This document shows positions 10,403-34,522 of a DNA stretch of 64,000 nucleotides, in pieces. A model generated the notes under the pieces. That model was not told the DNA's origin, ran no database searches, and saw only the letters and a program-made list of their open reading frames with translations. The position numbers and the translations under genes were made by a program. This stretch comes from Dethiobacter sp. Lineage in GTDB: Bacteria; Bacillota; Dethiobacteria; Dethiobacterales; Dethiobacteraceae. The DNA is taken from positions 124,001 through 188,000 of the forward strand of contig JAGXRN010000042.1 of assembly GCA_018335875.1 (NCBI GenBank). Reading direction: 5' to 3'. Position 1 is the stretch's first letter, and each line of letters begins with the position of its first letter.

Positions 10403-10446
10403 AGAGTCTAAAAATTTTCCCGCAAGTCTTATTACCTATAAAAAAA

Positions 10447-11640: not shown

Positions 11641-11644
11641 CTAA

Positions 11645-15396: not shown

Positions 15397-15401
15397 ATCA
15401 C

Positions 15402-16250
15402 TTAGTTACCATTTAGTCCAAATGCTCTTGTCCCCAGCTTGTTCTTATACTTTACTTCATGTGCGATAACTTCTTTCTTGGTCAATGTCCTTGGCAATGT
15501 TTGAAGTATTGTGAATTTAAACGATTTATGCCGTTCAGGATGCTCCGCCAGTAAATCAACTAACAACTTGTTATGGCCATGCTGGGACTTTGCATACTGC
15601 TCCCACCGACCCAATATTCCCCTCTCCCCTGACGCCGAACCAATATACTGCAGGCCTTCTTCTGTATCAAGGATAAGATACACGCCTGCAACCGACCCAA
15701 GCATTCTATGCCACTCTCGATTCGCATCTGGATTATCGATAACCTTCTTTAGCTCATTGAATGATAATGTAAAGTCTAAGAAGCCTGGAAACTTCTCAAA
15801 GTAACCTTTGGGTAATATCTCCACCACTTCTTTGTCATTGCTTTTCAGCCACTGCTGCCATTGTATTGCACTATTGCCCCAGTCAATTATCATCCTGTCT
15901 TTCAGGTCGTCTAAATTATCGAGTTCTTCCATTTCATAATAGAAGTCTTCTGGTTTAAAGAAGTCAGGATAAGGGAAATCTCTCGGCACTTGAAAATTTG
16001 CGACTTTTGTTATACCAGTTATCCTGTAAAGGCCAATAAACTTCGCTTTCGAGGCTTCCGTTCCCAAGAAGGACATAACATAATCACAATCGCGAAAGAT
16101 ATCTTTGCTCTGAACGCTTTGATAAGTTTGTATCATTCCTGACTCATAAAGCATTTTTAAATCGTGTGTTTTATTATCTTTATGCCTTAGCAGTTTTGTC
16201 GTACTGCAAGAGTCAAATCCTCTTATTTTAAGAATTTCTGTAAGGTTCAT
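15402..16250 (-). CDS. GIY-YIG nuclease domain protein
   Basis: AGVYLILDTEEGLQYIGSASGERGILGRWEQYA. Confidence 0.75.
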   Translation of the reverse strand: MNLTEILKIRGFDSCSTTKLLRHKDNKTHDLKMLYESGMIQTYQSVQSKDIFRDCDYVMSFLGTEASKAKFIGLYRITGITKVANFQVPRDFPYPDFFKPEDFYYEMEELDNLDDLKDRMIIDWGNSAIQWQQWLKSNDKEVVEILPKGYFEKFPGFLDFTLSFNELKKVIDNPDANREWHRMLGSVAGVYLILDTEEGLQYIGSASGERGILGRWEQYAKSQHGHNKLLVDLLAEHPERHKSFKFTILQTLPRTLTKKEVIAHEVKYKNKLGTRAFGLNGN

Positions 16251-16424
16251 TGTCAGCCTCCTTATGAACCGCTGTTATGGCTTGCGGGTCAACCATTGGT
16301 GGGCTTCCCCTGGCCGACATATAGGCGGCTACCATTCTCGCACTTATAGATATATAAGCCGTTCTTACGTCCCAAACTGAGACTTAATATACCTCTTCAA
16401 GTGGTACTACTAGTAAAACTTTAC

Positions 16425-16967
16425 TTAGGTTTTGACCTTAATCAAACTTGATAAGCATTCTATTTGCTTTTTCCCAAGCTCTGCAGTGTCTATTTTAAAC
16501 TCTACCTGCGCTAGAGTAATGTTTACTCTATTTATTAAATAATCTACTGAAAACATTCGACTGAAAATAGCTTTTATCAAGTCATGACTATCATTAATAT
16601 CTCTAATTTTTTTTGCCATTTTTTTTTGCTCTGTTAATGATTGTTTTATCAACTCTACTAGCTCTTCTGCTATTTCTGCCTGTTTTTTATCAGCAAAAGA
16701 ATTTAATATTTTCGGCTGAATACTTTCACATTCATTAAGTAAGTTATAATCTTCATCAAGCTCTGAAGCATAAATTTCAAATATTTCCCTGTTTTCTTCA
16801 TAGGAAATATACTTAACAATTTTATCATATAATTTGTGTTCTTTTATGAGTAAACCTAAAAGGAGTTTTAGAAGATATCTTAATGTTATGTATGTGTCAA
16901 ATTGTTCTCTCATCTTTTTGAGCTTTGCAAACCTATATAGACCAAAGCAAGTTACCACCGTCAACAC
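16425..16967 (-). CDS. Hypothetical protein
   Basis: 180 aa helical, Lys/Glu-rich ORF. Confidence 0.45.
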   Translation of the reverse strand: MLTVVTCFGLYRFAKLKKMREQFDTYITLRYLLKLLLGLLIKEHKLYDKIVKYISYEENREIFEIYASELDEDYNLLNECESIQPKILNSFADKKQAEIAEELVELIKQSLTEQKKMAKKIRDINDSHDLIKAIFSRMFSVDYLINRVNITLAQVEFKIDTAELGKKQIECLSSLIKVKT

Positions 16968-17144
16968 TATAAAGCCAACAAAGGTCTTTAAATTTGAAAT
17001 AAAAGCTATACAGTTTCTGTATTCATAAAAGGTTCACCTCAGAAAGAACTGAATCTCAATGCCATTCTTATTCTTTGTATGAACAGGAAAGACTCCCTAT
17101 AATGGCTTACCAAGCGACCACTGATGGGCTTTCCCTTGTCATAG

Positions 17145-18002
17145 TTATAAATTAGCTTCTTTGGAAACTGATATCCTTTCATTTTCAAGTTCCTTGTAAT
17201 AATCAAAGCTACCTTTATCAACATATGCTAGCGTTTCGTGAATCTGTATAATATCGAATAAGCAACAGTAACCTGCTATTATCACTGCCCAACTAGGGTC
17301 AGGCATTAGGACACCTGGTTTTTCATTGTCAAAAGAAAATATCTTTAAAAAATCCTGTGATACAGAAGCCATATCACAATGAACAAAACTACTAAGTAAA
17401 GGATACAAACTCTTGTAAACTAACTCCAACGGTTTTTTAGATATCGCATCGGCATCTTTTGTAAGACGGTCACGTTTTTTTGCCATTGACAATAAATCTA
17501 AGTTAGTCCATTTTCGACAGAAAGCTTCTGAAGCTTTTTCAAAGCTAGGGTTCATGGTACGTTGTGCCTCAGCAGCCTCCGTTCTGATAAAGTCAATATT
17601 TTTATCAAAAAAACTACTTAACACTGGGTCTTCATTCACCATTTTGGCATCTCTATACTGTTTAATTTTCATATGATAAACAAATGGTGCCAAAGCTACC
17701 TCAACGACTTCATGAATTAAGTATGATGTAACTATTACTTGTTCTAATCTTACCCTACATAATGACAAAGACTGTAACAGCAATCCCTTGTTTATCAACA
17801 GAAAAATAGCGCTGCTCGTAGTTTCTGCGTGATATAAAAGTCTGATAAATAGGTGTTTTCTAACTGGTAGCATAGAAATAAAATCTGCTGATATTAATTC
17901 ATGATAATACTTAAATCCTCGGGCACAAATATCATCAAAATGCATTATTGTAAGATTCTCTTTAAATATAAATAAGTCATGAGTAAATCTTTCATTGCTC
18001 AA
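17145..18002 (-). CDS. DUF5677-like protein
   Basis: LSLCRVRLEQVIVTSYLIHE ... LYPLLSSFVHCDMASV; 2 bp from the next gene upstream. Confidence 0.45.
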   Translation of the reverse strand: MSNERFTHDLFIFKENLTIMHFDDICARGFKYYHELISADFISMLPVRKHLFIRLLYHAETTSSAIFLLINKGLLLQSLSLCRVRLEQVIVTSYLIHEVVEVALAPFVYHMKIKQYRDAKMVNEDPVLSSFFDKNIDFIRTEAAEAQRTMNPSFEKASEAFCRKWTNLDLLSMAKKRDRLTKDADAISKKPLELVYKSLYPLLSSFVHCDMASVSQDFLKIFSFDNEKPGVLMPDPSWAVIIAGYCCLFDIIQIHETLAYVDKGSFDYYKELENERISVSKEANL

Positions 18003-18004
18003 CG

Positions 18005-18904
18005 TTATAAACTCCCTTCAAGAAAGAAGTTCGTATATTTATGTGTTGTATAAACACGGTTTAACATTTCAATATGATGTAAAGGAAACCATTCAAGCTT
18101 AACATTTGTTTTGTTTTCATCTTCATTATCTGTTTTAACACAAGCAATACATGGGTCACCGTTAAAAACTTCAGTTTCCTGAAGTAGACGTTGAATGAAA
18201 CTTATACCAATTTTCAAATCTGTAAAAACGTTTTCTTTTATTTGGGAGTTGATGATTTCAATGAATTTCATAACACAATTAATATGAACGGTAATCTCGA
18301 TATTATCTGAAAGCTTCTTAATATCTAACGTAAGTTGTTTTCCCCATGAATCATACCTGTCCAATAGTTCTTCTTTATTAAAGAAAACTTTTAAGCTATG
18401 TTGGGTTTCCTTTCTGTCAGGCTCAATTAGTTTTGAACTTACCTCTAAGTTACCAACTGGCATTCCGCAATGTTGAGCATAATTCCTAAGCTTGTAAATA
18501 AATCTATATGAAAAATCATTATCATAAAACTCGGTACACACATCTTTAAACTGGCGAAATTGGTTAGAATCTTTTCCATGGCCTTTCTTAATGCTTGCCT
18601 CAGAATGGTCCAAAAAAGTGCGAAAAATTGAAAGAAAGTTAAGTATCAGCCTGTTCACATCGAGAAACATATGTTCTATTCTTGGCCAATCCATAACTGA
18701 ATTTTGACAGTATTGCACACAATACTTAATTAGAGCTTCTTGTATAGCATCATAATTCAATTTGACCATTTGATATAATTGTTGACTCTCAGCAAATTTA
18801 TTTAATTGATAAAAGGCATTTGTTAGGGTTGTATATTCTTCTTTGGCAAGTTCCCTTATTGAGTAAAGACTTGTTCCACACATTGCTGCTAGCACTGGTT
18901 TCAT
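18005..18904 (-). CDS. HEPN-like protein (putative)
   Basis: FIYKLRNYAQHCGMPVG contains an RNxxxH motif typical of HEPN RNases. Confidence 0.45.
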   Translation of the reverse strand: MKPVLAAMCGTSLYSIRELAKEEYTTLTNAFYQLNKFAESQQLYQMVKLNYDAIQEALIKYCVQYCQNSVMDWPRIEHMFLDVNRLILNFLSIFRTFLDHSEASIKKGHGKDSNQFRQFKDVCTEFYDNDFSYRFIYKLRNYAQHCGMPVGNLEVSSKLIEPDRKETQHSLKVFFNKEELLDRYDSWGKQLTLDIKKLSDNIEITVHINCVMKFIEIINSQIKENVFTDLKIGISFIQRLLQETEVFNGDPCIACVKTDNEDENKTNVKLEWFPLHHIEMLNRVYTTHKYTNFFLEGSL

Positions 18905-19216
18905 TTCTTTTCCCTCGCTATCTATTTATCATTAAATATAAATTACCGAGGATAAAGGGCCATGACTTTTACCGTGTTTGCGCTATCTCCACTCCCTAAA
19001 CGCTGGTTGCAGAACACAATCAAGCATCAACTCAACACTCTCCGATTATCTTCTCCCTCTAACACTTTCCAAAAGACCGTCATTTTCCCCTGATGTTTCA
19101 TAAAGAACCTGTGCCATTTCTTATTCTTTGTTTCGCCAGGGACTTCCTGAAATAACTCTGTGTAATGGGCTAAGGAGTCGGCAAACAATAGGCTTCCCCT
19201 ACAGCAAGTTATTAGT

Positions 19217-19729
19217 TTCTTAACCAACGCATATCAGAGATTGATTCGTTAAAGCCATCAATTATAGTTTTTGCTCGCTCATATGAGCCATCAAAAAGTC
19301 CTCCCATTACAGGCGGCCAATTCTCTTTCATATTTTCAAGCTCTTTATTGACTGCAATAATTACTGAGCGTTCGCTACGTCTGTTCCGCCATCCAAAAGC
19401 GCCTATAGGGCCCCAAATACCTTCTCCATCTTTCTCTGATAAATCAGAGTGTATTAATGAATAGAGATATTCAAAACGGTCAAAGCATTTCTGAAACTGT
19501 ATATCATTGGGAATTAATTCTCTAAAAGCACTTCTAAAAAAGGCAAATAAATATTGGCTAACTGGCGTGTTGCGCCCTTCATAGCCTGGCAGAATTCTAT
19601 CATAGGATAATAAAAGGTCATGTGCTTTTTAAATAGGTAAATATTACAAAATAACCATTCACAATGCGATTGACTAGAAAAGTTGAAGCAAAAAATTATC
19701 TTCTCCGAGTCATGGCTGATATGATTCAC
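19217..19729 (-). pseudogene. Hypothetical protein gene interrupted by a frameshift near 19640
   Basis: Frame a gives MNHISHDSEKIIFCFNFSSQSHCEWLFCNIYLFKKH; a second frame without ATG gives HDLLLSYDRILPGYEGRNTPVSQYLFAFFRSAFRELIPNDIQFQKCFDRFEYLYSLIHSDLSEKDGEGIWGPIGAFGWRNRRSERSVIIAVNKELENMKENWPPVMGGLFDGSYERAKTIIDGFNESISDMRWLRN*. Confidence 0.6.
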
Positions 19730-19736
19730 TCAAAAA

Positions 19737-20384
19737 CTACTTTAACTGTGCCTTCAACCTATTTATTTTTTCGTCAATCATGATATTAATTTCATTAATA
19801 GAGCCTTTGTCCTGCTTAATCGAATGTTGGTAATAATTAAGGAGTGAATCGTCGATACTATTTAAACTTTTCACGGCGTTATTAAATTGAGCCTTCCAAG
19901 TTATTGCTCTATCTAAATCAAGAAATACGCAGCTACAGAAGATTACCCCATAATATGACGGTAATAAATACTTGTCACACAGGATAGAAGATTGATATGA
20001 TAACTCAGCCATGCCCATTAAACTTTTTAATTTATCATCGCTTAAATGTCTATAAGGATATCCTTTTGAAATTGATGCCCCTAGCCTTTCCAACGTAACT
20101 GCAAACATTGATAAAAGACCTAAATCAACTTCTGATTGTGCAAGCTTAGTAAAGTTATTTTTGACTAACCCATATTCTTCTGAAACAATCAAAAATTCCC
20201 TTATTCGCTCCATATCATCAATTTCTAATTCAGCAATTTCAGGTATGTATTTACTGTTCTTATATAATTGGTTAAATATATCTCTTGCAATTTCCTTGTC
20301 TATTTTGCGCCAATGACGATGCTTCTGTAATTTCAATATAAGTTCATCAACAGATTTAAATTCTTCTTTATATAACTTCCCCAT
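19737..20384 (-). CDS. Hypothetical protein
   Basis: 215 aa ORF with aaggagga RBS; 7 bp from the frameshifted gene downstream. Confidence 0.55.
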   Translation of the reverse strand: MGKLYKEEFKSVDELILKLQKHRHWRKIDKEIARDIFNQLYKNSKYIPEIAELEIDDMERIREFLIVSEEYGLVKNNFTKLAQSEVDLGLLSMFAVTLERLGASISKGYPYRHLSDDKLKSLMGMAELSYQSSILCDKYLLPSYYGVIFCSCVFLDLDRAITWKAQFNNAVKSLNSIDDSLLNYYQHSIKQDKGSINEINIMIDEKINRLKAQLK

Positions 20385-20502
20385 AACGAATCTTCCTCCT
20401 TATTCTCATTCAATTTATCAATATAGTTGCTTTTCATGAATATTTTGTTCCATTAAGCATAACCTTAACGTGCATCTCTGCATAAGGTGTAACTTCATGT
20501 TT

Positions 20503-21357
20503 TTAACTTATTCTAGCTAGCAATTCTTTCTTCTTATTAGAAAATTCTTCCTCAGTTAATATGCCCTCATCTTTTAGCTTGGCAAGTTCCCTAATTTGGT
20601 CTAATATATTCGAACCCGTGCTTTCATTCAAAACACTATCTATAATATCGTTTGTTTTAATTGTATTTACTATAGTAAATGCCTTCTGAGGTATCAATTC
20701 ATTAAATTTCTCATAGTCTTTAAAATCAAAAACCATAGAGTGCTTAAGGTTATTGTCATCAAAGTATTTAAGAAAAGTTTCCCTACTATCATGTGTTATT
20801 AATTCAGAACTAATAGGGTCAATTTTATTTCGACTACCAATTATTGCACCTGCACCACCTGCAATAGCACCACCTACTAATGCTCCTTCAAAAGAACTAC
20901 CACCACCACCACCAGTAATTTTATTTTCATATACAACATCGCCGCTAGTCGCATAATATTCTATCTTACTAATAGGAATTTTGTATAAAATGATTTTTTT
21001 AATGTCGCTAGCAGTATCAGAACTTGGAGACTTCGTTGGAAAAAAGCATAAATCATTATCTTCAATCCACATAAATACTTTAGTATTAAGAATGGTAGCA
21101 TTTCCTTTTTTATAATTAACTTTCGATGCATTATCAGGTATTGTAATCTTTGACTTAAAATCGCTATATTTCTGATGTGCTCTCTCGAATGATTCTTTTT
21201 TCAGTCTTACCTTATCTTCTTCGTCAGCTTCCCTGTTTGCGCTTATAAAACTAATTACAGCTATTATTGCTGCTGTTACCACCATTGCTGGTAGAGGATA
21301 GTTAATAAATAGTACTATGACAACAGCAATTAGAATTATTGCTAAGCATCCTTCCAT
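20503..21357 (-). CDS. Membrane protein with C-terminal SHOCT domain (start trimmed to MEGCLAIILIAVVIVLF)
   Basis: C-terminus ILDQIRELAKLKDEGILTEEEFSNKKKELLARI; hydrophobic segments after the trimmed start. Confidence 0.75.
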   Translation of the reverse strand: MEGCLAIILIAVVIVLFINYPLPAMVVTAAIIAVISFISANREADEEDKVRLKKESFERAHQKYSDFKSKITIPDNASKVNYKKGNATILNTKVFMWIEDNDLCFFPTKSPSSDTASDIKKIILYKIPISKIEYYATSGDVVYENKITGGGGGSSFEGALVGGAIAGGAGAIIGSRNKIDPISSELITHDSRETFLKYFDDNNLKHSMVFDFKDYEKFNELIPQKAFTIVNTIKTNDIIDSVLNESTGSNILDQIRELAKLKDEGILTEEEFSNKKKELLARIS

Positions 21358-21766
21358 TGACTTCACCTCTTCCCTTATCTTGCAAAAGCAAAAATAGGTA
21401 TTTTTTACCTTATCCGTCAGTGAACTCATCATAGTCTTTACAGCTATCATTAACGTTGATATCCCTCGCAGCCCACAGCAAAAGTTGAAATAGCGAAGAC
21501 AGTCAGCCAAGAGCGTTACGCTTTTAATGAGCATATCCTCGAGGGCATCGTGGAACTTGTTCAATCCTAAGGGTAATCTCACTCTCTATCGTAACTTCAG
21601 AAGACCAGGCTGGTTGCCATTCAATTGCCATTAATAGGCATCCATCTTTCGTGGGTCATACTGGCTAATGTGCGAATATTGTACTATTTCGCCAATCATT
21701 TCCATTTTCCTACCAATAGTACTCCCAACCTAGCATAAAAAGGTATTCCTACGCAGAAGAAACTAA

Positions 21767-21804
21767 AAAGGCACTGAGCTGCTTAAAAAGCAGTTCAGTG
21801 CTTT
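21767..21804. terminator. Strong bidirectional-looking terminator
   Basis: AAAGGCACTGAgCTGCTT-aaa-AAGCAGtTCAGTGCTTT. Confidence 0.7.
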
Positions 21805-22455
21805 ACCTTTTTATTAGCTATTTTTTTACTCATTAACTCTTTATCTGCTTCCTCTATCACCTCATTAGGAAGGACTGAATATTTCGTTTCAGTAGAGCAG
21901 GTATCACGCTGATTCAGAGCATCTGTCTCGGTTAAATTGACCACCCTTCATGATTTGCCAGGGCAGTTTGAGGATTACTGTATTGTTTTCTGGGGATGTG
22001 CCACAGTGTTAAGATTAGAGCCACAAACAACCCGAAGTTAGGGAAGTAACGTAGCGAGGTCGTAAAGGTGGCTGCCCTGGCTGACGAAACAGTTTGCCAG
22101 AGGCTCCATGTCAAGGCTGGCCGCAGGCCACCCCAAAGGGGGAAGCCTTTACATGGAGAGGGCAAAATGTTACCCTTTTGGGGCGCAGCCACACCAGACT
22201 GAGCGGTGATTCTAGTAGCTACCCAGAGGGGCTCTTCAGATTGATTGCTCTATGTTCCGCGACCCCTGCTCTAATTTGCCGAGACACGTGCTCTCGTTTT
22301 CCGAGAAAGTTGCTCTACAGAAACGAAATACTCAGGACAGCATCAACGACAATACATTGCTTCTTGCTATATACTTGAGCAGTTCCTCTTTTCAACCCCG
22401 TCAGAAATGATTCTTGCAGCTTTTTAGGCAACTCCTTTTGCCCAAAGGGTTTCAT
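21795..22455 (-). pseudogene. Small gene (about 70 aa) split by a short transposon-like insertion
   Basis: Upstream part MKPFGQKELPKKLQESFLTGLKRGTAQVYSKKQ (ATG at 22455, RBS gaggtgg); downstream part on the far side of the insertion ...SVLPNEVIEEADKELMSKKIANKKVKH* in the same orientation. Confidence 0.5.
21872..22335. mobile_element. Short non-autonomous transposon relic with long imperfect inverted repeats and 22-bp subterminal iterations (IS21-family-like ends suspected)
   Basis: Left GGACTGAATATTTCGTTTCAGTAGAGCA...AGAGCATCTGTCTCGGTTAAATT matches right-end reverse complement TGTCCTGAGTATTTCGTTTCTGTAGAGCA...AGAGCACGTGTCTCGGCAAATT; GCTCT at 22247, 22268, 22290, 22312 and AGAGCA at 21894, 21916. 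Confidence 0.7.
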
Positions 22456-22664
22456 AGTTACCACCTCGTTTCTAGTTTTATTATTCTGTAACAATAATTT
22501 TGTTCTAGAATAAGCGTATAAATTAGAATGAAGGTAAGGTTATTATCGTGTAAAATTTCTTTAGCAGACCTGCAATCATTGGTTAGTGAGCGGGTTCTGC
22601 ATTGGCTGGAATATAGTAAAAGCATTATCAGGAGATAGTTTTGCGAGCCATAGTCAATTTGCTA

Positions 22665-24659
22665 TTAAATGTATAATTTAACCTTTTCATGAAGCCAATC
22701 TAATGCTATTAATAACAAAGCCATTTGATGTTTGTCAATATCCTCTGCATGCGCATCAATTCGCGAACTATTAACATATCTCATATATTGTTCAAAATCG
22801 CTCTTATCTCCAAATATTTTGCAGAAGTCTTGCCAATTACGGGAAACAACTTTTCTTAAATCTTCTAAGTACTTTTCACTTTTGTTTTCAAATATTTTAT
22901 CCAAGCTCAATTGGGAAAGTTTTTCTTTCCTGCTGGTCGGACTAATTACATCCAAGAACTTCTTTCTCGCTTCAATTGGTCCATAAGTTAATTTTAACTT
23001 AAGCCTAACCAAGTCCCTTAAATCTGTTTCGAATAAATTGCGCCGTACTGTTATTTCTTTCCACTTATCTTTTTTATTCTCAAATTTTTTATTTACTTCT
23101 GCTACCTCTACTAAATATTTTTCTACTGATTTAATTCTAAAATGAAAAGTATTCTGCTCTTGAGTAACTAAGCCATAACCTTCAAGGTGCTCAATAAAAC
23201 TGTGTGAAATCTGAGCAAATTCCTGAAATGTATCAATATCTCCTATTGCAAGGTACTGTAGTAATTCATATTCATCTGGATACCAATTTTTAAGAACGTT
23301 TAATATCAACTCAATATAATCCTTTATTGAATTATCTAAGTTATTTTTCTCAACTTTATATTTAAATTTTGTAACCTGAACTGGGCGATTTTTAGGTAAA
23401 GATTTATGTAGACAGCTACATATATGTCTTACTAAAAAGGGGTGACCACCATAGTCCTCTGTTAAGTAAGTAAAAATTTCCTCATCAAATTCAAGTCCCA
23501 TGTAATAACCGATTGACGTGACCATCTCACGTACTTGACTAATATTAAATAGATTTAAATATGAAGGAGAAACTATCCTATATATTGGATTATCTAAGCC
23601 TTGTATTGTAGCAGTCTCAAATAGCTTTGGATTTACTCCTGCAACAATAAAGGAAAAATTGTCTCTATTTTTTTGAAATATGGAACGTAACGTTTGCCAA
23701 AAGAAAATAAAATCTTTATCACTTTTCCAATGCTCTGAAGGAGAAATATCAAAGGTAATGTTTTCAATTTCATCAAATAAGATGAGAATTCTTTTCTTCT
23801 TTAAAATTACATAAATACTCTTAATATCTTCTTCAAAATATCTTGAAGCGTCTTTTTCATCATAAACCTTTGATAATGCAATTATTTTGGTTGATTTTAT
23901 CGCAAACTTCTCAACCATATTAATAATTATAAACTGCAGTACCTCAAACCATCTTCTCTGATGGAATGAGGGCTCTTGGCAGTCAAAAAATATAGACGGT
24001 TCATCGCGCAAATTTAAATGCCTCATTAATGCATAAAGAACAGAGGTTTTTCCAATTTTTCGAAGACCGAATAAACCTGAATTCTCTCCTGTTTTATATC
24101 TATCATACAAATGTTGAATTAATTGCAACCGTCCAAAAAAATATGTGTCACTCTTTAAGGGTGATTCAAATGCATATAAGTCACGATTATGAAAATAATC
24201 TTTAAAGCGATTTATAATTATATTAGTATCTTTTGCAAGTCGAAGTTCTGTATAATTAAACGGAATTATTATCCTAGACTCAGGTTCTTGTAAAGCCATT
24301 CTTTGTATTTGTGAGTTTATCTGAAGGTCTTTGCTAACAATAATTATACACAATTTATCAAGTCTATTATGAAAATCAGACATTATCTTATCTACAAAAT
24401 CAAGGCACCTTGTATCATACTTAAGGTAAGGGTTAAATAGTATTAGTACTTCTCTTTCAAAATGAAATATTTTTTTTAGTTCACTTGATGGTTTCCCAAA
24501 TGCAACTGTATAATTGCTATTTTTGAATGTAGTCTTTCGAAAAAAAGTAACTAACCATAATTTTGAAAATAATTTAATTATTGCTCCTTCTTCCTCATCT
24601 ATTACTGAAAAAGATAAGTTTGAATGAATACCTGGTTTTATTTCTAGCATTATAACCAC
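22665..24659 (-). CDS. STAND/AAA-type NTPase with possible C-terminal HEPN-like motif
   Basis: GLFGLRKIGKTSVLYALMRHL (Walker A), KRILILFDEIENITFD (Walker B), C-terminal YVNSSRIDAHAEDIDKHQMALLLIALDWLHEKV. Confidence 0.7.
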   Translation of the reverse strand: MVIMLEIKPGIHSNLSFSVIDEEEGAIIKLFSKLWLVTFFRKTTFKNSNYTVAFGKPSSELKKIFHFEREVLILFNPYLKYDTRCLDFVDKIMSDFHNRLDKLCIIIVSKDLQINSQIQRMALQEPESRIIIPFNYTELRLAKDTNIIINRFKDYFHNRDLYAFESPLKSDTYFFGRLQLIQHLYDRYKTGENSGLFGLRKIGKTSVLYALMRHLNLRDEPSIFFDCQEPSFHQRRWFEVLQFIIINMVEKFAIKSTKIIALSKVYDEKDASRYFEEDIKSIYVILKKKRILILFDEIENITFDISPSEHWKSDKDFIFFWQTLRSIFQKNRDNFSFIVAGVNPKLFETATIQGLDNPIYRIVSPSYLNLFNISQVREMVTSIGYYMGLEFDEEIFTYLTEDYGGHPFLVRHICSCLHKSLPKNRPVQVTKFKYKVEKNNLDNSIKDYIELILNVLKNWYPDEYELLQYLAIGDIDTFQEFAQISHSFIEHLEGYGLVTQEQNTFHFRIKSVEKYLVEVAEVNKKFENKKDKWKEITVRRNLFETDLRDLVRLKLKLTYGPIEARKKFLDVISPTSRKEKLSQLSLDKIFENKSEKYLEDLRKVVSRNWQDFCKIFGDKSDFEQYMRYVNSSRIDAHAEDIDKHQMALLLIALDWLHEKVKLYI

Positions 24660-24796
24660 TCTCCAATCCAGTATTATTTACCGCCAACCAACCCGCTAAT
24701 GTTTATGTTGTACTTTTGGGTGCGTCTTCTGATGGCTCCCCTTTTTCTTTAACAGGGCCATATATAAAGACGTTTCCCAAATGCCATTTTCATTAT

Positions 24797-25080
24797 TTTA
24801 TGTTAAATTTAATCCTTTCTTCTGTAATAATGACATCTTCTACTTTCACAAGGTAACAACTATTTTCAATCTTTGAGTTCTTTCTAGGAACAGCTATTAT
24901 ATAGTCACCATATGTTTTTAAACCGACAGATTCTGGTGTGGACGAAAGAACGAAAAAATTGCTTTTTGATAATGCTTCATATTGTCCCAGTAGGTTTGAA
25001 TATGCTGTTATCCAAGCAAAAGAAAAATGTCAATTATACCTTCAATTTCAGATGATTCTTTTTTGGGGACTATGTCTTTA
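24797..25080 (-). pseudogene. Decayed hypothetical gene (3' portion)
   Basis: Open frame without start: HFSFAWITAYSNLLGQYEALSKSNFFVLSSTPESVGLKTYGDYIIAVPRKNSKIENSCYLVKVEDVIITEERIKFNIK*; upstream SEIEGIID in another frame. Confidence 0.4.
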
Positions 25081-25319
25081 CCGCATCTTCTCTGAATAAA
25101 GAGCTTTACTAGACTAATAAGGATTGAGCATTGTAGCTAAAAAACATTCGTAAAATCTAATGTTATAAAAATCTTGGAATATTAAAAACACTTGTGTAAC
25201 CTAATCAATAGCGGACTTTTCTAGGATAACATTTTCTACATATTTCCTCTAATTCCTTCAATTATTTTAGAAGGCAAAATATCCTAATGATGAAAATAGT
25301 TAACAAGGGGGGCCAACAT

Positions 25320-25352
25320 ATTTAACCCCTATACAAAAACTAGGGGTTAAAT
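25320..25352. repeat. 12-bp perfect inverted repeat downstream of the PLD/rSAM/nuclease operon
   Basis: ATTTAACCCCTA-tacaaaaac-TAGGGGTTAAAT. Confidence 0.7.
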
Positions 25353-25440
25353 GTACAACAATATACAGTTTTTCGTCTTGCTTAGTATTGTTAATGGAAA
25401 ACAAATTAACAAACTCATCTGCCAATTAACAATACCCTTA

Positions 25441-25890
25441 TTAGAATCTGTGAAACCAGTCAAGTCCCAGTTCTATACAGACTCTTTGGTAAAAAAGGTT
25501 CTTCGGGTCAGAGACAGAGTCATTTTCATTATTTATATCATCTGACTGGAAATCTAATTCAATACTAATGCCACTTAAAATAAGCTTACTTTTCATATCG
25601 TTTTTAATGTGTTTCCCAGAAAAAACAATTAATGTGGTTATAGGACTAGTTAAGCAATCCTCTAGGGTGTAGCTTAACTTTTGGTATGCTGTTCCTTCAG
25701 TTTCCTGAATTTTAGCCTCAATACCAAGATATGTATTTAGCTTTTTATGTTTTAAAACGATATCTATTTCCCGTGGTGTATTAACAAAACGATACCCAAC
25801 GGGAACTTCTTTTTTTATCTCAATTGGCTCATTCCATGACTCAATTAAACGAATTACTGCATCTCTGAACCGATTACCTCTATTAGCCAT
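25441..25890 (-). CDS. PD-(D/E)XK nuclease superfamily-like protein
   Basis: TPREIDIVLKHKKLNTYLGIEAKIQE (D-x(n)-ExK); last gene of a three-gene operon. Confidence 0.55.
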   Translation of the reverse strand: MANRGNRFRDAVIRLIESWNEPIEIKKEVPVGYRFVNTPREIDIVLKHKKLNTYLGIEAKIQETEGTAYQKLSYTLEDCLTSPITTLIVFSGKHIKNDMKSKLILSGISIELDFQSDDINNENDSVSDPKNLFYQRVCIELGLDWFHRF

Positions 25891-25905
25891 CGTAACCTCA
25901 CTTCA

Positions 25906-27027
25906 TTAATTAACTTCTCTTGTAGCAGCTACTTCTTCGTTATTGGCGTCAAACCTCGGAACTGTTTCGAATTTTAAATCAAAATATTTTTTTGCAATAT
26001 CAGGATGTTTATTTTCGAAATCTCTGAGGTATCTCACAGTCGAACTTTTTTCTCCATTAGCCTCACAATATTCTCTAAAACTTTTCTTTTTAAAGAAGTT
26101 TGGCTGGTTACACCAACGAGCAATATTTATGTAAAGCCCTGCAAATTCACTTTGCTTATATGTATCATATCTCATGATATATGGCAAGCACCTGTATTTC
26201 ATAAGAACAGAAATACGCTCAAAAACACTGATAATATCATTTACATCTTGTGATTCATAGGCACAAAGTATGTAGAGTTTAGTGGTTTTCGAACAATATT
26301 TACGCCAAATATTTAGTTTTCGCTCAATTAATTCACGGTCTTTCAGATAATCGAATGCAAATATGTAATCACCTTTATATTTTGCTTTACTAAGGACACT
26401 AGCCTTTTCCTCTGTCATTAAACGAATATCAATGCCTTGCCTGAACTGAAAATAGCGTTTTGTTTCAGCTAGTTCGTCGAAAACTTCTCGCCAGTTTTCA
26501 TACCCTAGGATATTATCATCCCAGAGATAGATATATTTCCGAGTTGGGTCAACGAACTCTGATACCTTAGCATGCCGTACTACACGGTCATATTTTTTAT
26601 TAACGCAAAAACTACACTTTCTAAAGCATCCTCTTGTAGCAAACCCAATAGAGTAATCCATATAATCAGAAAAATGCTGAGGCTTTATCCCTCTGCCAAT
26701 TTCTTTTTCTACAAATTTATCATAAAGATGATAATCTGGCATGTGGTGTTCGATTTCAGTTGGAAGGTCTTGTTTTTCTTCAGGAAGAAACCCTGTACCT
26801 CCATATTCAACATTAGGCAAAGTGAGAATTTTTGAATTTATTTTTGTAAATGTAAAAACTTTTGAGATGTATACCTTATCGAATGATTCTAAACTATTGT
26901 AGTCAAACAGGAGCTCCGTTTCATATCCCAAAGTGTTTTTCATGTAACCACTAAGTTTCATAAGTGCCAAGTTAGGATGTCGTGTTCCATTATCAATTAG
27001 GTCCGCGTCAATAAAGCCAATTCGCAT
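25906..27027 (-). CDS. Radical SAM protein
   Basis: GFATRGCFRKCSFCVNKKYDR (CxxxCxxC); YLWDDNILGYENW, FRQGIDIRLMTEE; N-terminus NGTRHPNLALMKLSGYMKNTLGYETELL. Confidence 0.85.
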   Translation of the reverse strand: MRIGFIDADLIDNGTRHPNLALMKLSGYMKNTLGYETELLFDYNSLESFDKVYISKVFTFTKINSKILTLPNVEYGGTGFLPEEKQDLPTEIEHHMPDYHLYDKFVEKEIGRGIKPQHFSDYMDYSIGFATRGCFRKCSFCVNKKYDRVVRHAKVSEFVDPTRKYIYLWDDNILGYENWREVFDELAETKRYFQFRQGIDIRLMTEEKASVLSKAKYKGDYIFAFDYLKDRELIERKLNIWRKYCSKTTKLYILCAYESQDVNDIISVFERISVLMKYRCLPYIMRYDTYKQSEFAGLYINIARWCNQPNFFKKKSFREYCEANGEKSSTVRYLRDFENKHPDIAKKYFDLKFETVPRFDANNEEVAATREVN

Positions 27028-27096
27028 ATAGTCTCACCTTCATAGTTCTTTTATTATTATTATATAAGAACATATGTTCCACTTCAACGATTATTT

Positions 27097-28236
27097 TTAC
27101 ATTTTAGCTAAAACCGATTCAACCTCTATTACACCGTTAACAAGCAGATATTCAAATAACCTTTTAATATTTGGCCTTCTTCGATTGATTGTTGATTGTT
27201 TTAAATATGGGCGAAGATAATTATCTAGACTAAAAGAATCATTCATATGTTTATCGATTATATCTTTAACAATCGCCATTCTATAAATTTGTGCCTTCAA
27301 TATTTCGCGTTTATTCGTATTATTTTCCTGTAAAAATCCCTTCCCAAGTTTAGTTAGAAAAACTTTCCTTGGCCGTCCTTGTGTAATCGTTGTAAAATCC
27401 AATAGCTCGGCAAGTTTTGAATGATTCTCACCATATTTTCTGTCAGCTACCTCTCCTCTCTGTCCTTCCTGAAGTTTCCTACCCATTTCCAGAAAAGTTA
27501 AGCCGATATCATTTTCTTTACTTAGTATTTCAACAACAGAAAATGCACCATGCTCAAACGTGCTAAATTGTGGTATTTCTTCAATAGAAATTTCTCCAGC
27601 AGAAACATTCTCGAAAGCTATTCCTTGGGCACCCCTATCAGACACCAGGTTAAACCGAGCAAACTTATCTTTCTTTTTTACTCTTCGCAAAACGTCTAAG
27701 TTTATAAGACTCACAGACTCATTAACATAATTTGTATATTCATTAACAACCTGGTCATAGAAGATATCCAGCGGTTCACTTTGCTCAAAAACTTGATTAA
27801 AATATGATAAAAACTGACTGATAATATTAGGGTCATCAGTTGATATAGCTCCCTCAATATTTCCAATTCTTTTTTCAGCGAATAATCCGTTTAAAGTACA
27901 ATTACCGCTTCCAATTAATAAACTGTTGTCGTTAATAAGAAAGGCTTTCATATGTAAGTTGGAGATTCTACGGACATTAATCGGGTCTATGCAACTAAGT
28001 TTTCGTAAGGTTTCTAGGGCAGATATATCAGAAGCTCCATTAATAAAGTCCGATAAACGCCCTGCAATTAATACTTTTATATTTACCCGTACGCTATTAC
28101 CGTTGAGCCTGTAAGCAGTGATAATTCTTTCTAACGCTTCCTTTTTTAAAAAAGGCGAACAAATTATAATGGAATCTACATCCCTTTGTTGTATAATCCA
28201 ATTTTCAAATAAAGGAGATGGTACAAATAAATTCAT
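27097..28236 (-). CDS. Phospholipase D-like domain protein with C-terminal winged-helix-like region
   Basis: NLHMKAFLINDNSLLIGSGNCTLNGLFAEKRIGNIEG (HxK motif context); FTTITQGRPRKVFLTKLGKGFL. Confidence 0.75.
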   Translation of the reverse strand: MNLFVPSPLFENWIIQQRDVDSIIICSPFLKKEALERIITAYRLNGNSVRVNIKVLIAGRLSDFINGASDISALETLRKLSCIDPINVRRISNLHMKAFLINDNSLLIGSGNCTLNGLFAEKRIGNIEGAISTDDPNIISQFLSYFNQVFEQSEPLDIFYDQVVNEYTNYVNESVSLINLDVLRRVKKKDKFARFNLVSDRGAQGIAFENVSAGEISIEEIPQFSTFEHGAFSVVEILSKENDIGLTFLEMGRKLQEGQRGEVADRKYGENHSKLAELLDFTTITQGRPRKVFLTKLGKGFLQENNTNKREILKAQIYRMAIVKDIIDKHMNDSFSLDNYLRPYLKQSTINRRRPNIKRLFEYLLVNGVIEVESVLAKM

Positions 28237-28347
28237 ACTTCCTTAGCTCCTTATCCAGCGTACACGTATGACCATTTTTTTCTTTTTTCGCCATGAATAG
28301 GCTACTTACCTGCTATCATATAAATTAGTTTTATATGTAGATAGTAT

Positions 28348-28397
28348 AAAAAGCTAAAGCACCGAATTGCTTAACAGCCTCAGCGCTTTAGCTTTTT
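28348..28397. terminator. Terminator-like hairpin
   Basis: AAAAAGCTAAAGC...GCTTTAGCTTTTT. Confidence 0.65.
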
Positions 28398-28523
28398 AGT
28401 AGTATCATTTTTAGGCCTGAAATAAGAAGAATAAGCATTATTGTCGCTGAATATCGCAGAAGTGCACAACTACAGGGATGGCTGTATGTAATAAGACTTT
28501 CTATTGACTCTAACCATCCATGT

Positions 28524-28970
28524 TTATTGTTGACCTGGTAATTCTATAATTTGCTCTGTGGATATTTTAATATCAGTAATAAACGGTTGTAAGTCAAGTA
28601 TTTCTTCTTTTGATAATCCTTCTGTATCTATAATGAGCTCGTCATTAATTTTAAGACTTTGATTTGCTGGTAATGACTTTTCAACTATGACTGTCAATTC
28701 TTCAGTTATAACTATGTTAGAAATTCCATCTCCTAAAATAGGTGTGATTGATTTAACATATATGTCTCGGTTCTCCTCATTAGTTAAAGTAATTGAATAC
28801 GATAACTTTTGCTTATCCATGATGTCGTTATTATCAGCAGCTCCTACTCCCGTGGTCATACTATAAATTTGCAGCCCTATCATATTGTCTGGATTCGAGG
28901 GATTGCAACCTATTAGCAACATACCTACTAATATAAACCATCCAATAAATATCAATTTTTGTGTCCTCAT
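28524..28970 (-). CDS. Putative lipoprotein
   Basis: Signal peptide with lipobox LLIGC. Confidence 0.65.
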   Translation of the reverse strand: MRTQKLIFIGWFILVGMLLIGCNPSNPDNMIGLQIYSMTTGVGAADNNDIMDKQKLSYSITLTNEENRDIYVKSITPILGDGISNIVITEELTVIVEKSLPANQSLKINDELIIDTEGLSKEEILDLQPFITDIKISTEQIIELPGQQ

Positions 28971-29090
28971 TAGGAATCCCCTATCTTGTTTTTCAGCAAG
29001 GCACTTTTATTAACCTTTATATATACGGTTCTGGGTGGTTTCCTCTTACAAGACTACCACGGTTTTCATAATAGACATAAATTAGTTATA

Positions 29091-29372
29091 TTATTTTACC
29101 AAATGTAGCCTTGTTTTTTTTACTTTGTATAGCTCCTGTTCAACCATCTCAGGAGGCAGAACCTCGCCCTCTTTCCCGATTTGAACATATTCACCTTTAT
29201 CAAAGCATACAGCACAAAAAATTCCTGTTCTTTCGTATGTTGTAACGCCCGTAACAGTAAAAGATGGATTTGTATCAAAGCTGGTTATAAGCCCACCGAT
29301 GTTAAGTTCAAGGAAGTGAACACAATTTTCACATAGTGGGCATACTGTCTCTTTAATTGAGTTAAAAGACAA
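29091..29372 (-). CDS. Small zinc-ribbon-like protein
   Basis: CPLCENC and FCAVCF Cys pairs. Confidence 0.45.
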   Translation of the reverse strand: MSFNSIKETVCPLCENCVHFLELNIGGLITSFDTNPSFTVTGVTTYERTGIFCAVCFDKGEYVQIGKEGEVLPPEMVEQELYKVKKTRLHLVK

Positions 29373-29440
29373 ATTTGTCGCCCCCTTTTTTCAATTATTC
29401 ACAAAGTTAAACGGATGGTAAATCTTCTCTATCAAAATAA

Positions 29441-29470
29441 AAAATCCCTTCAAATTAAAGGGATTTTTTT
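29441..29470. terminator. Terminator
   Basis: AAAATCCCTT-caaatt-AAAGGGATTTT. Confidence 0.75.
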
Positions 29471-29480
29471 CACAGTGCAT

Positions 29481-29681
29481 TTATTTTTTCATGATATCGA
29501 TAATGTAGCTATCCAATATATTACTTTGTTTGAGAACAGCTCTGTTATTGAAACCTAACTGATTGACAAGCATGTATAATCGCAGTCTCTCAGCCTCCAA
29601 GCAAACATCTATTTCCCATTTGGTATTTTGTAAATTCTCTGCTTCTTCAGGTATTTTTTCAGCGGTTTCCGTTTTCAACAA
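29481..29681 (-). CDS. Small hypothetical protein
   Basis: 66 aa ORF with an aggaggcag RBS just upstream and a terminator just downstream. Confidence 0.4.
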   Translation of the reverse strand: MLKTETAEKIPEEAENLQNTKWEIDVCLEAERLRLYMLVNQLGFNNRAVLKQSNILDSYIIDIMKK

Positions 29682-30411
29682 CTGCCTCCTTTTTAAAACA
29701 AATTATTTGAAATTTCATCCAATTATCAATACTATATAGAAATCATTCAGATGTTTCAAGGGGAATTTTGTAGTTTTTTATAAATCCCTGTTTTTTATAG
29801 GGTACGTGGGGTTTTTACCGAGCTATATAGTCTAGGAGCAGACGGACGATTCAATAGTTCAATATGAATTAGAATAAAATCTGACTGACAGAGTGATATA
29901 CGACTGTATGTGACTTTATGTGTTGTATATTTATTGTAAGAGGCTGTTATAATAAAATATGAATGTTATAGTAATATAATCATTAATTATCTTATTATTT
30001 TATAATATAACCATAATTTGGGGTATTCCCCGTGTGAACTAATGATGTTATAATTGCTCCATCAACGAGGAGGTGTTCGCAACATGACGCACAATAAAAC
30101 ATCATACAACAGGATGTATTTTCAACATGAAGTATTACGAAGCGGCAAACGATTTTCTAGTGTCCCGAAGTTACAACCCCGATATTAGTACCAGAACCTC
30201 TGGTTTTAATCGCGAATGATGTTGACCAAATTAATCAAACCGTATTATTGAAAGTCAGAAAAGTACGATAAAAGATAAACGACCCATTCTTCCAAGAGAA
30301 CAATGGAAAACGAGCCAAATTTACGCTACACCTATAAAAACAAGGTAGGCCTATTGAGTCAGTATTGGGAGGCCTTCCCTAATTTTAAAACACCAGGAGG
30401 TTTTTAGCAGC

Positions 30412-31347
30412 ATGAAGTATTATGAAGGAGTAAATAAATGGCGATTATCCAATCCAAACTACACAGATAGAGTGATAATGTTTTACTGGGAGCAACTCCG
30501 TGCAGTTGAAGCTATACTGAAGAAGACGTTCCCTGATTGCGTAGAGGATATCTCACTGATTGATAAACAAACCATTCATTCGATTATTCATTACATGCAA
30601 GAAATGGGTATGTCCGACATGTTGATTGCTACACGGTTAAACAGTCTAAAAATTCTCATCACCTACTTATCGAGTAATGGTATTATGATGGACACAGGTA
30701 AAGATATTCATTTTAGAATCCGAAGCAACAACAAAATTGCATTTACTTTACAGGAAATAACGGCCATGTTTAATGTATTAGACTATAACAGTGTACGAGA
30801 TATGTGCACGCTCGCTATTGCATTGTTGATGCTTGATACAGGGGCCAGAACGCGTGAAATATGTCAGCTAGACATGGACCATGTGGACCTTGTTAATAGA
30901 ACCGTCTATCTCGGCCCACGAACATTTACAAGGGGCGAAAATATACCGTTTGGCAAGATTACATGCAAAGCTCTTGAAAATTACTTAAACTCCCGCTCCA
31001 TGGATAAAGACCAGCCAGGTGTACCCTTTTTTCAAGAGCGAGATGGACGAAGAATACAAGACCGTACTATTCTTCGTAATATGAAAAAAATGGGCGAGAT
31101 GGCCAACATTCAAAGCGTTCGTTGCACACCGTCTACGTTTCGCAACACGTTTGCCATTCGTTTTCTCGCAGGTGGTGGGTCGGCGATATTATTAATGCAT
31201 ATATTATGCTACCGAAAGTTTAAATCACTGAATAGGTATCTTACGTGCGAATCACAAAGAACCGAAATCAATGATGATGATAAACGAGCCTACAGAGATG
31301 CACTAAACCGTATTTTTGACCATTGCAAGATTAATCACCCCACATAA
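30412..31347 (+). CDS. Tyrosine recombinase with degenerate catalytic boxes
   Basis: DTGARTREICQLDMDHV; CTPSTFRNTFAIRFLAGGGSAILLMHILCYRKFKSLNRYL. Confidence 0.8.
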   Translation: MKYYEGVNKWRLSNPNYTDRVIMFYWEQLRAVEAILKKTFPDCVEDISLIDKQTIHSIIHYMQEMGMSDMLIATRLNSLKILITYLSSNGIMMDTGKDIHFRIRSNNKIAFTLQEITAMFNVLDYNSVRDMCTLAIALLMLDTGARTREICQLDMDHVDLVNRTVYLGPRTFTRGENIPFGKITCKALENYLNSRSMDKDQPGVPFFQERDGRRIQDRTILRNMKKMGEMANIQSVRCTPSTFRNTFAIRFLAGGGSAILLMHILCYRKFKSLNRYLTCESQRTEINDDDKRAYRDALNRIFDHCKINHPT

Positions 31348-31349
31348 AT

Positions 31350-31393
31350 AATAAGGTCATCCGAATCAAAGACTTGATTCGGATGACCTTATT
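31350..31393. terminator. Bidirectional terminator
   Basis: 20-bp perfect palindrome AATAAGGTCATCCGAATCAA-AGAC-TTGATTCGGATGACCTTATT. Confidence 0.8.
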
Positions 31394-31395
31394 GA

Positions 31396-31625
31396 TTTTT
31401 AAACGGGCTAAACTTCTTGTGTTGCCTTTTCATTTCTGGGCAAAACATATCCACCGATGCACCATCTCCCAGTCAGTATGCCCCTATGATTTTCTTTAGG
31501 GTTAAGGGGTCCCCCCCATTTAGGATATACAATTTTGCAAAGGTATGTGTCGTCCCGCCTTTTTCGCCAGAATGCTGATTCGTTCCTGTATGGTTCGGGG
31601 ACATGGTCTCGTTATCTAGTGTTAT
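31396..31625 (-). pseudogene. Degraded recombinase relic related to 33320..34279
   Basis: tttttaaacgggctaaac...cccagtcagtatgcccctatgattttctttagggttaaggggtcccccccatttaggatatacaattttgcaaaggtatg aligns with tttttaacgggctaaac...ccccaatctgcatgaccaagaattttttttagggtaaaggggtcacccccatttaaaatgtagagcttggcaaaggtatg at 33329-33481. Confidence 0.75.
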
Positions 31626-31783
31626 AAAAAAATCTTCTAGTGTGCCGCGCTGTGCTATAGCATAGTTTTACGACGGTCGTAGATTTCATGGTATCACGGC
31701 GGATTTTACGCTGACGCACGCTTTCGCTTTTTGGATGGTCGTGTAAACGAAAACAAGGACTCTTGAAGCCCTTGTTTTGCATA

Positions 31784-31846
31784 TGGAGTCGGGGATAAGG
31801 GATGAGATTTGAACCCAACGGTTCCGCCACACGCCCCTTAAAGTTA
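31784..31846 (-). other. Second tRNA-Leu 3' relic (internal attachment-site-like)
   Basis: Reverse complement TTTAAGGGGCGTGTGGCGGAACCGTTGGGTTCAAATCTCATCCCTTATCCCCGACTCCA. Confidence 0.65.
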
Positions 31847-32205
31847 TGCTAGGATGTCATCTTTTTTTTAATAATTTTTTGGTAATTTATTGAATAAATA
31901 TCCTGATTATTTTCAATAAATAGCAATAAAATTAATTACGTGTTTTATCATGAATATTATCATAAGATGCTCACAAAGGTAACAAATACAAGGGTTTGTA
32001 GCTTCATGTAATTGCAATTATATCGTATTTTACTATGTCATATATATTTAAGTTATAGCCCAATTTCATAATATTACATGCTATATAGTCAACATGCCTG
32101 TATATACCATATATAACCATTTACGCACCAAACTCTACTGTGCTATATTTATGTCACCCAAACAAAAGGAGCTGAAATCTTATTGACAAGTCGAAATTAG
32201 CATCA

Positions 32206-33264
32206 GTGCGTTACCAGTCTCCTTATCTGAAAAAAAGAGATAGTATGGACCCCAAAATGTTGTCGGAGGCTTTCCAAAGGTTCCTAGAGGAATATAATCC
32301 TCTTGGAGAAACAGAGGCAAGAAAGAAAATCTCATTTGACGATGCAAGAATTATGTACATCAGAAAGCGAAGACATTCTCGTAAGGTAAAAAGTGAAAGG
32401 ACGATAAAATTTTATGGAGAAGTTTTAAATGTATTTAGAAATTTTTTACAGGAGGAAGTCCCCGATTGCATAGATGATGCCACACTGATTGATGAGGAAA
32501 TTATTCTTGCGTTTATTGATGAAATGATTGATGACGGCAAAGCGGATTCTACGATTAAGGGTCGCGTAAATACATTGAGAGTATTTTTTCGCGAACTATC
32601 CATTGAAGGTCTAACAAGAAATGTATGTAGGGATATTACGTTTGAATATTCAGGGTACGAGAATATTATCCCCTTCTCAAACTGTCATATCGAGGCCATG
32701 ATGAAGGTACTCAATAACAAATGTCTCGATGACTTACGGACAAAAACCTTTGTTAAACTGTTTATCGAAACGGGGATAAGGCTAAACGAGTTGTATAATC
32801 TCAATATCGAAGATATTGATTTTGAGAATCAACGGATTCATGTCCGCAAAGGAAAATATGACAGAAACAGATTTATACCCTTCGGAAGTGACACAAAAAA
32901 ATATCTTCAAAAATATGTGAATGCGTTTGGTATCTATCGGGGCGCTCTAAGTGACCCATTCTTCATTGGAAAAGATGGTAAGCGTTATGGTAAGCGGAGA
33001 ATACAAGAGGATTTTATGAAGTTGCGACGCAAGGCAAATATCCAAGGTATACGGTGTAGCGCTCACACTTGTCGTCATACCTTTGCTCTCAATTTTATTC
33101 TAAACGGTGGCTCTACCATAGCGCTTAGGCATTTCATGGGGCACAAAACCGAGGAAATGGTAGCACGTTATGTCCGTATTACGCAAGAACACGGAGACAA
33201 AATATTTATCAGCCATTTCGATAAGCTTTCCAACGGTAGGTTAGAAAACCCCGACGATTTTTAA
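32206..33264 (+). CDS. Tyrosine recombinase/integrase
   Basis: ETGIRLNELYNLNIEDIDF; CSAHTCRHTFALNFILNGGSTIALRHFMGHKTEEMVARYV. Confidence 0.9.
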   Translation: MRYQSPYLKKRDSMDPKMLSEAFQRFLEEYNPLGETEARKKISFDDARIMYIRKRRHSRKVKSERTIKFYGEVLNVFRNFLQEEVPDCIDDATLIDEEIILAFIDEMIDDGKADSTIKGRVNTLRVFFRELSIEGLTRNVCRDITFEYSGYENIIPFSNCHIEAMMKVLNNKCLDDLRTKTFVKLFIETGIRLNELYNLNIEDIDFENQRIHVRKGKYDRNRFIPFGSDTKKYLQKYVNAFGIYRGALSDPFFIGKDGKRYGKRRIQEDFMKLRRKANIQGIRCSAHTCRHTFALNFILNGGSTIALRHFMGHKTEEMVARYVRITQEHGDKIFISHFDKLSNGRLENPDDF

Positions 33265-33270
33265 AGGTTT

Positions 33271-33307
33271 GGTCAAACATCCCAAGTTACGATTGGGATG
33301 TTTGACC
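33271..33307. terminator. Convergent-gene terminator
   Basis: 15-bp perfect palindrome GGTCAAACATCCCAA-gttacga-TTGGGATGTTTGACC. Confidence 0.75.
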
Positions 33308-33319
33308 TATCTTTCGAAG

Positions 33320-34279
33320 TTATAGGTTTTTTAACGGGCTAAACCGTTGATGCTGTTTTTTGATATCCGTTGAAAACATGTCTACATAACGGTGTACCAT
33401 TCCCCAATCTGCATGACCAAGAATTTTTTTTAGGGTAAAGGGGTCACCCCCATTTAAAATGTAGAGCTTGGCAAAGGTATGCCGCCAGATATGCGGAGAC
33501 GACTTCTTCTTGACGCCAGCTTTTTTAGCCAATGTTTCAAGTCTTCCCTGAATCGTTCGGTTTGCCATAGGCTCATTGTCTATGGACACAAAAACCACAT
33601 CGGTAGGCAATTTGCCACGGGCATTCAGATATTCCCGTAATGGTTTTTTCAGCTCATCACCCAAAGGGACAAAACGTTCTTTGCTCCCTTTTCCATCTAG
33701 GCAAAGCAGGTCGTCCCTCCAGTAAATATCTTGTACCCTAAGTTTTCTCACTTCACTTACCCTGGCTCCTGTATCAAGCAATGTTTTGAGGATTGCCAGG
33801 TCGCGTAACCCTGTAAAAGTCTTTTTGTCGCAAGCTTTAAAGAATGCCTCGATTTCATCATTATCCAGAGAAATAATGACCTTTTGCTTCTCCTTAAGCT
33901 TATCTAGCACTGCTGCAATATCGGTGTCCACATATCCTTCCTGCAGTAAAAACTTCCAAAACGCTTTGAACGTTTTCAAACGGTTGTTGATGGTAGTCGG
34001 TTGATTTTTGAAAGTTTTTATTGAATACAGGATGAAGTTATGCTTTAATTGATTCGTTGTTATCGTCTTTAAATCCAAAGGAATACCTTGCTCGTGAAAT
34101 GCCTTCTTTAGCACATGGAAGTTTTCGATGTGCCACTCGATGGTTCTCGGCGTTCGATTCTTGATGACCTGCTCTTTTAAAAACAAATTAACCGCATCGT
34201 CAAACGATAGTGTTTCCCCATCTTTTGGAAACACAAAGGTGTGTTCCCCAGGGAAAAGTTCATTTTTTCTTCGTTTCAT
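33320..34279 (-). CDS. Tyrosine recombinase/integrase (tRNA-proximal)
   Basis: DTGARVSEVRKLRVQDI; SPHIWRHTFAKLYILNGGDPFTLKKILGHADWGMVHRYVDM. Confidence 0.9.
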   Translation of the reverse strand: MKRRKNELFPGEHTFVFPKDGETLSFDDAVNLFLKEQVIKNRTPRTIEWHIENFHVLKKAFHEQGIPLDLKTITTNQLKHNFILYSIKTFKNQPTTINNRLKTFKAFWKFLLQEGYVDTDIAAVLDKLKEKQKVIISLDNDEIEAFFKACDKKTFTGLRDLAILKTLLDTGARVSEVRKLRVQDIYWRDDLLCLDGKGSKERFVPLGDELKKPLREYLNARGKLPTDVVFVSIDNEPMANRTIQGRLETLAKKAGVKKKSSPHIWRHTFAKLYILNGGDPFTLKKILGHADWGMVHRYVDMFSTDIKKQHQRFSPLKNL

Positions 34280-34437
34280 GTGTCAGCCTCCCAGCTAGAA
34301 TAGTGTGTTAGGAAAATATTTCATACACACCTCGACTGGGGTTTTACGCTGGCGCACTATTCGACCACTTTTATTGGTCGTGTAAATAAAAACAAGGATT
34401 TCAAGACTGGCTTGAAACCCTTGTGATACATGCGTTA

Positions 34438-34522
34438 TGGTGTCGGGGATGGGACTTGAACCCACACGGTGTTTACCACACGCCCCTCAAACGTGCGCGT
34501 CTGCCAGTTCCGCCACCCCGAC
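34438..34522 (-). tRNA. tRNA-Leu(GAG), CCA encoded
   Basis: GTCGGGGTGGCGGAACTGGCAGACGCGCACGTTTGAGGGGCGTGTGGTAAACACCGTGTGGGTTCAAGTCCCATCCCCGACACCA; 7-bp acceptor stem, class II variable arm, anticodon GAG. Confidence 0.92.

Follow-up and report, generated by a model that had tools for sequence, protein, structure and literature searches.

Which described system comes closest to this locus? The nearest named one, PbeABCD (CxC-ABC-ATPase-DndE), is linked to phosphorothioate and was absent from the preliminary description of the locus; known Pbe modules occur with phosphorothioation genes, with cytosine methylases, or alone, and a radical SAM (rSAM) partner has not been described (PMC6459918, PMC10853773). 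About 30% of the surveyed modules (165/553) have no known modification gene nearby (PMC6459918). The cassette considered here lies in a stretch of 64,000 nucleotides, the window, and encodes a PLD (HKD) nuclease, an rSAM protein and a small PD-(D/E)XK nuclease. It shares with PbeABCD the HKD nuclease domain, and complete Pbe loci hold relatives both of its rSAM protein and of the C-terminal domain of its PLD protein (Cdom). Unlike PbeABCD, however, the window has neither the PbeA helicase nor PbeB, PbeC or PbeD, and its rSAM stands in contrast to the phosphorothioation and methylase genes known as Pbe partners; no PbeA was found in the window's genome.

Type II restriction-modification (R-M) systems composed of a D12 methylase and a PDDEXK_11 endonuclease resemble the cassette in endonuclease family, gene order and, for the closest relatives, 15-bp spacing, but the window has an rSAM for the methylase, plus a PLD nuclease. 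A further likeness is presumably to PLD restriction endonucleases of the BfiI type, which we take to share an N-terminal single-HKD domain, a C-terminal putative DNA-reading domain and a similar length; the differences are that the window cassette has no methylase and that its C-terminal domain is unrelated as far as tested. In a low-confidence model, the C-terminal part of the PLD protein is mostly helical with small strands, not a BfiI-style B3-like barrel. The phage rSAM proteins of phrog_9298 belong to the same family as the window's (up to 61% identity), but are orphan genes without Cdom or nuclease partners. The parallel to DISARM DrmC drawn earlier proved slight: the PLD domain resembles DrmC only weakly (PADLOC, E 7e-12), and DrmA and DrmB had no match among the window proteins scanned. 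In the literature, we found no description of an rSAM modification component in restriction, phosphorothioation, Pbe or defence systems, the closest mention being a different rSAM module of a Thermus phage suspected of DNA modification (PMC11437467).

The cassette and its genomic island

Coordinates read from the sequence confirm three minus-strand genes separated by 69 and 15 bp, as first described, and the HxK, CxxxCxxC and ExK motifs claimed for them are all intact (Table 1). Upstream of each of the three starts is a plausible ribosome-binding site (AAGGAG, AAGGTGAG, AAGTGAGG).

Table 1. Features of the cassette and of the island that carries it (positions in the window)
Feature	Position	Strand	Basis or detail
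PLD (HKD) nuclease fused to rSAM-partner domain, 379 aa	27097..28236	-	PLDc_2 at residues 21-149; single HxK...D...GSxN motif
Cdom, C-terminal domain common to rSAM-linked proteins	27100..27621	-	residues about 206-379; motif DRKYGENHxK, RRxPN
rSAM protein, 373 aa, putative DNA-modifying enzyme	25906..27027	-	phrog_9298; AF2 model and fold search; tree
PD-(D/E)XK nuclease of family PDDEXK_11, 149 aa, putative type II-like restriction enzyme	25441..25890	-	PF20472; D12-methylase-linked relatives
Genomic island with the cassette, integrated at tRNA-Leu	6513..34522	.	GC, att-like repeat, tyrosine recombinases
tRNA-Leu (gag), where the island ends on the right	34438..34522	-	
Imperfect copy of the 3' part of tRNA-Leu, at the left edge of the island	6513..6570	.	

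GC content is 0.30-0.35 across most of 10-30 kb versus 0.47-0.55 on the right-hand side of the tRNA gene, and several tyrosine recombinases lie on this mobile island. A PDC-M62A/B or Septu-like ATPase and HNH pair (11645-14353, minus strand), whose PtuA-like ATPase is split over two ORFs and possibly inactivated, and a UzuA-like GIY-YIG protein (15402-16250, minus strand; a PADLOC candidate defence gene, E 3e-94) are found on the same island and so provide a defence-island setting for the cassette. Downstream of the cassette is a 664-aa AAA/STAND-like ATPase (22665-24659, minus strand), which we rejected as a fourth member, as it is ~780 bp distant and no shared occurrence was seen. Outside the island lies a pan motif cis-regulatory RNA (RF01749; 36825-36917, minus strand).

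Gene neighbours of PDDEXK_11

The small protein, previously called ExK nuclease-like, is indeed a PDDEXK_11 member (PF20472, E 1.9e-10, above cut-off) and keeps D43, E58 and K60. A search of 249 genomes of the phylum with the PF20472 profile turned up 12 besides the window's that have it, and the surroundings of 11 loci were read: a D12 DNA adenine methyltransferase adjoins PDDEXK_11 in 10/10 other loci tested by Pfam (E <= 1e-42), and the eleventh, L170, has another methylase-like neighbour, judged by eye. The closest relatives of the window protein (L168 and L169, 58-64% identical; by BLAST 63% and 59%, respectively) start 15 bp after the methylase. The window gene starts 15 bp after the rSAM, and this neighbour is a radical SAM protein, not a DNA methyltransferase. 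Its placement exactly where relatives keep the methylase is the most direct argument for an rSAM that fills the modification slot. A cognate-like D12 methylase was missing elsewhere in the window's genome, the two D12 matches there being dissimilar; since the genome is 97.7% complete, this absence is strong but not absolute.

Could PDDEXK_11 instead be an endonuclease remaining from an R-M system that has decayed, or may two systems merely abut? The locus would then comprise a unit of rSAM and PLD-Cdom and, beside it, an orphan PDDEXK_11 whose methylase was lost. The idea of a conserved three-gene neighbourhood, put forward in the preliminary description, did not hold up: among ~800 genomes searched for the Cdom (genomes were sampled from two phyla, besides viral, phage and plasmid collections), the trio was seen in one copy only, which favours separate neighbours, as does the tendency of low-GC islands to gather fragments, the split PtuA-like gene being nearby. 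All three frames and catalytic motifs are intact, however, the 15-bp gap leaves no space for another gene, and an endonuclease deprived of its methylase ought to kill the cell unless the rSAM, or some other enzyme, confers protection; we regard a chance juxtaposition as rather unlikely.

The radical SAM family, Cdom and Pbe loci

The rSAM matches the PHROG family phrog_9298, 'radical SAM domain protein', at E 9e-54, and Pfam Radical_SAM only weakly (E 0.09). No PADLOC model matched it or the small nuclease, a sequence search against solved structures returned no match for it or for the PLD protein, and it showed no recognisable DNA-binding domain. Its AF2 model (pLDDT 91) has MgmA, MiaB, an MtaB model, AprD4 and TsrM as best fold matches, so that the N-terminal region, likened earlier to that of B12-type rSAM proteins, is correctly described as a fold. 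Across 36 relatives, the only invariant cysteines are those of the CxxxCxxC trio (C134, C138, C141). An MgmA/MiaB/TsrM-like fold combined with a single conserved three-cysteine cluster and no further conserved cysteines argues against a classical methylthiotransferase. Alternatively, the enzyme might make or alter a small molecule, a tRNA or a protein, in a viperin-like or MiaB-like manner, and the nucleases might respond to this. The nearest folds would fit: MgmA acts on a protein side chain, MiaB on tRNA, AprD4 on a sugar and TsrM on tryptophan. Yet the viperin parallel of the preliminary description failed, with no match to the viperin models of NCBIfam or PADLOC, the MiaB-type auxiliary-cluster cysteines are not conserved, and the genes linked to the rSAM are those of DNA methylases and restriction nucleases and the Pbe genes, all of which makes such a substrate improbable in our view.

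The PLD protein matches Pfam PLDc_2 (E 1.7e-7), with catalytic residues H95/K97 (HxK) followed by D103 and GSxN at 109-112; with one HxK motif per chain, it is presumably dimeric, as in BfiI/Nuc. Its AF2 model, built from an alignment of three rows, reached a pLDDT of 50 overall and gave no significant match in a fold search. The tail, mostly helical and bearing a small wing (pLDDT there about 80), was modelled at low confidence; the winged helix once proposed for it is accordingly plausible but unproven, the sequence match to AAA_assoc_C being weak and below its cut-off, and a DNA-binding fold for Cdom is a low-confidence prediction.

Cdom connects the window to other loci. In L005 it is 34% identical (E 1e-18) to the C-terminal part of an rSAM fusion protein of 632 aa, and in L068 it forms a standalone 219-aa gene just downstream of the rSAM. 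A profile search added L074, where the Cdom gene adjoins the rSAM, and L075, where the rSAM lies on the opposite strand at the cluster's other end. Outside the window, Cdom is thus fused to an rSAM once and a separate gene three times, and an rSAM of this family is present in 5/5 Cdom loci, window included: a rare but consistent pairing, with no further convincing Cdom in two surveys of 398 and 396 genomes. A genome-contig scan with the complete PLD protein returned one locus, L068, via Cdom only; IMG/VR yielded nothing closely related to either the PLD or the PDDEXK protein; and the plasmid collection gave PLD-domain-only matches for the former and none for the latter. With no close full-length homologue in the searches made, the PLD gene is tied to the rSAM through the shared Cdom and through gene order.

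All four Cdom loci outside the window carry a complete pbeABCD: PbeA (HKD plus SF2 helicase, TIGR04095; PADLOC E 1e-213 in L074), a PbeB-like ORF of 49-68 aa, a DndD/PbeC-like ATPase and a PbeD/dnd_assoc_4-like protein are the next genes in each. In the rSAM tree, the window copy falls in one clade (support 99/96) with the rSAMs of these four loci, and the same clade also holds the phage copies L006, L007, L008/L009 and L055. Full-length PbeA was found in 13 genomes among 299 searched in one phylum. An rSAM of the wider family is present at 5/13 of these Pbe loci (with Cdom in L074 and L075; more divergent in L132, L135 and L136), PAPS-reductase (DndC/SspD-like) genes at another 5/13, two of them with cysteine desulfurase, and neither within the stretch read at 3/13. 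The two never occurred together (0/13), for which we computed by hand a hypergeometric chance of about 0.04; with such small numbers, this exclusivity is only suggestive, and the repeated rSAM-Pbe adjacency is the stronger point. Dnd/Ssp-type PAPS reductase (DndC/SspD) and cysteine desulfurase were found neither in the trio nor in the rSAM-bearing Pbe loci. Some of the Pbe modules that lack a known modification gene could be accounted for by an rSAM partner.

Two further arrangements were seen at Pbe loci. The modules of L127, L130, L131, L133 and L137 lie beside PAPS-reductase, with or without cysteine desulfurase, and a conserved pair of genes (about 300 and 1200 aa), a gene set that resembles SspA-D, with Pbe as the restriction part. 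L134, L135 and L136 have an upstream 960-1135-aa protein with HhH, RNAP-alpha-CTD and sigma-4-like domains, accompanied in L135 and L136 by the divergent rSAM.

Proposed mechanism and phage copies

What might the cassette do? We consider it probable, if by no means certain, that it is a restriction-modification-like defence system with an rSAM in place of the DNA methyltransferase. The rSAM would chemically mark particular host DNA sites; Cdom, here fused to the PLD nuclease, would bind the target site and, together with the rSAM, lead to host DNA marking; and the PLD nuclease and PDDEXK_11 endonuclease would cut incoming DNA that lacks the mark. Gene order, motifs, homologies and recurrent linkage are direct observations, from which we infer DNA as the substrate, the activity of the rSAM, site reading by Cdom, a mark that blocks cleavage and a function in defence. 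The nature of the mark is inferred as well: base methylation at a carbon is our guess, from established rSAM chemistry. As to the earlier suggestion of a modified nucleotide or nucleic acid discriminated by the two nucleases, a nucleic-acid modification system with a mark discriminated in this way is well supported by the gene company, but nothing links the rSAM to a nucleotide product. An rSAM in modification-gene position beside two nucleases suggests a system for marking self versus non-self DNA, and a new R-M variant is a well-supported hypothesis, not a demonstrated one. If the rSAM marks DNA, it would be a new kind of DNA-modifying enzyme, and the mark probably a new one.

Relatives of the rSAM at 40-61% identity are carried by 59 IMG/VR contigs, and phage records show it beside methylase, ParB-like and PAPS-reductase genes. 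A DNA methyltransferase-like gene lies at most two genes away in 19/43 non-redundant viral loci; such neighbours peak sharply at +1, directly downstream (28%), and fall to 0-3% at five or more genes' distance, the peak being perhaps somewhat inflated because the methylase seeds were partly drawn from near the rSAM. PAPS-reductase-like genes are near the rSAM in only 4/43 of these loci, and we dropped the idea of a general phage-borne phosphorothioation role. The phage L007 copy is 94% identical to the Pbe-linked copy of L005, and the match between their DNA (1313 bp at 90%) ends with the rSAM domain, pointing to recent exchange of the rSAM alone between phage and defence locus. This is what one would expect if a protective modification gene had been stolen, in parallel to phage orphan methylases.

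The presence of the rSAM in many phages, with some copies close to the defence-linked clade, could also be read the other way round, as in type IV-like, modification-dependent defence, with nucleases that cut DNA bearing a phage-made rSAM mark. We think this very improbable: host cassettes themselves carry the rSAM and would mark host DNA, and PDDEXK_11 relatives are paired with D12 methylases of the protective type. Returning to the protective reading, one may generalise: rSAM enzymes could provide the modifying function in one class of restriction systems, with a compact PLD/PDDEXK form and an rSAM-Pbe form, whose DNA mark phages copy via orphan rSAM genes, a proposal for and against which we see the chances as evenly poised. 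Marking of DNA by the rSAM would also explain phrog_9298, a common phage gene so far unexplained.

Genome G248 contains four copies of a divergent member of the rSAM family (L176-L179), each amid similar conserved genes that, judged by eye, resemble a conjugative element.
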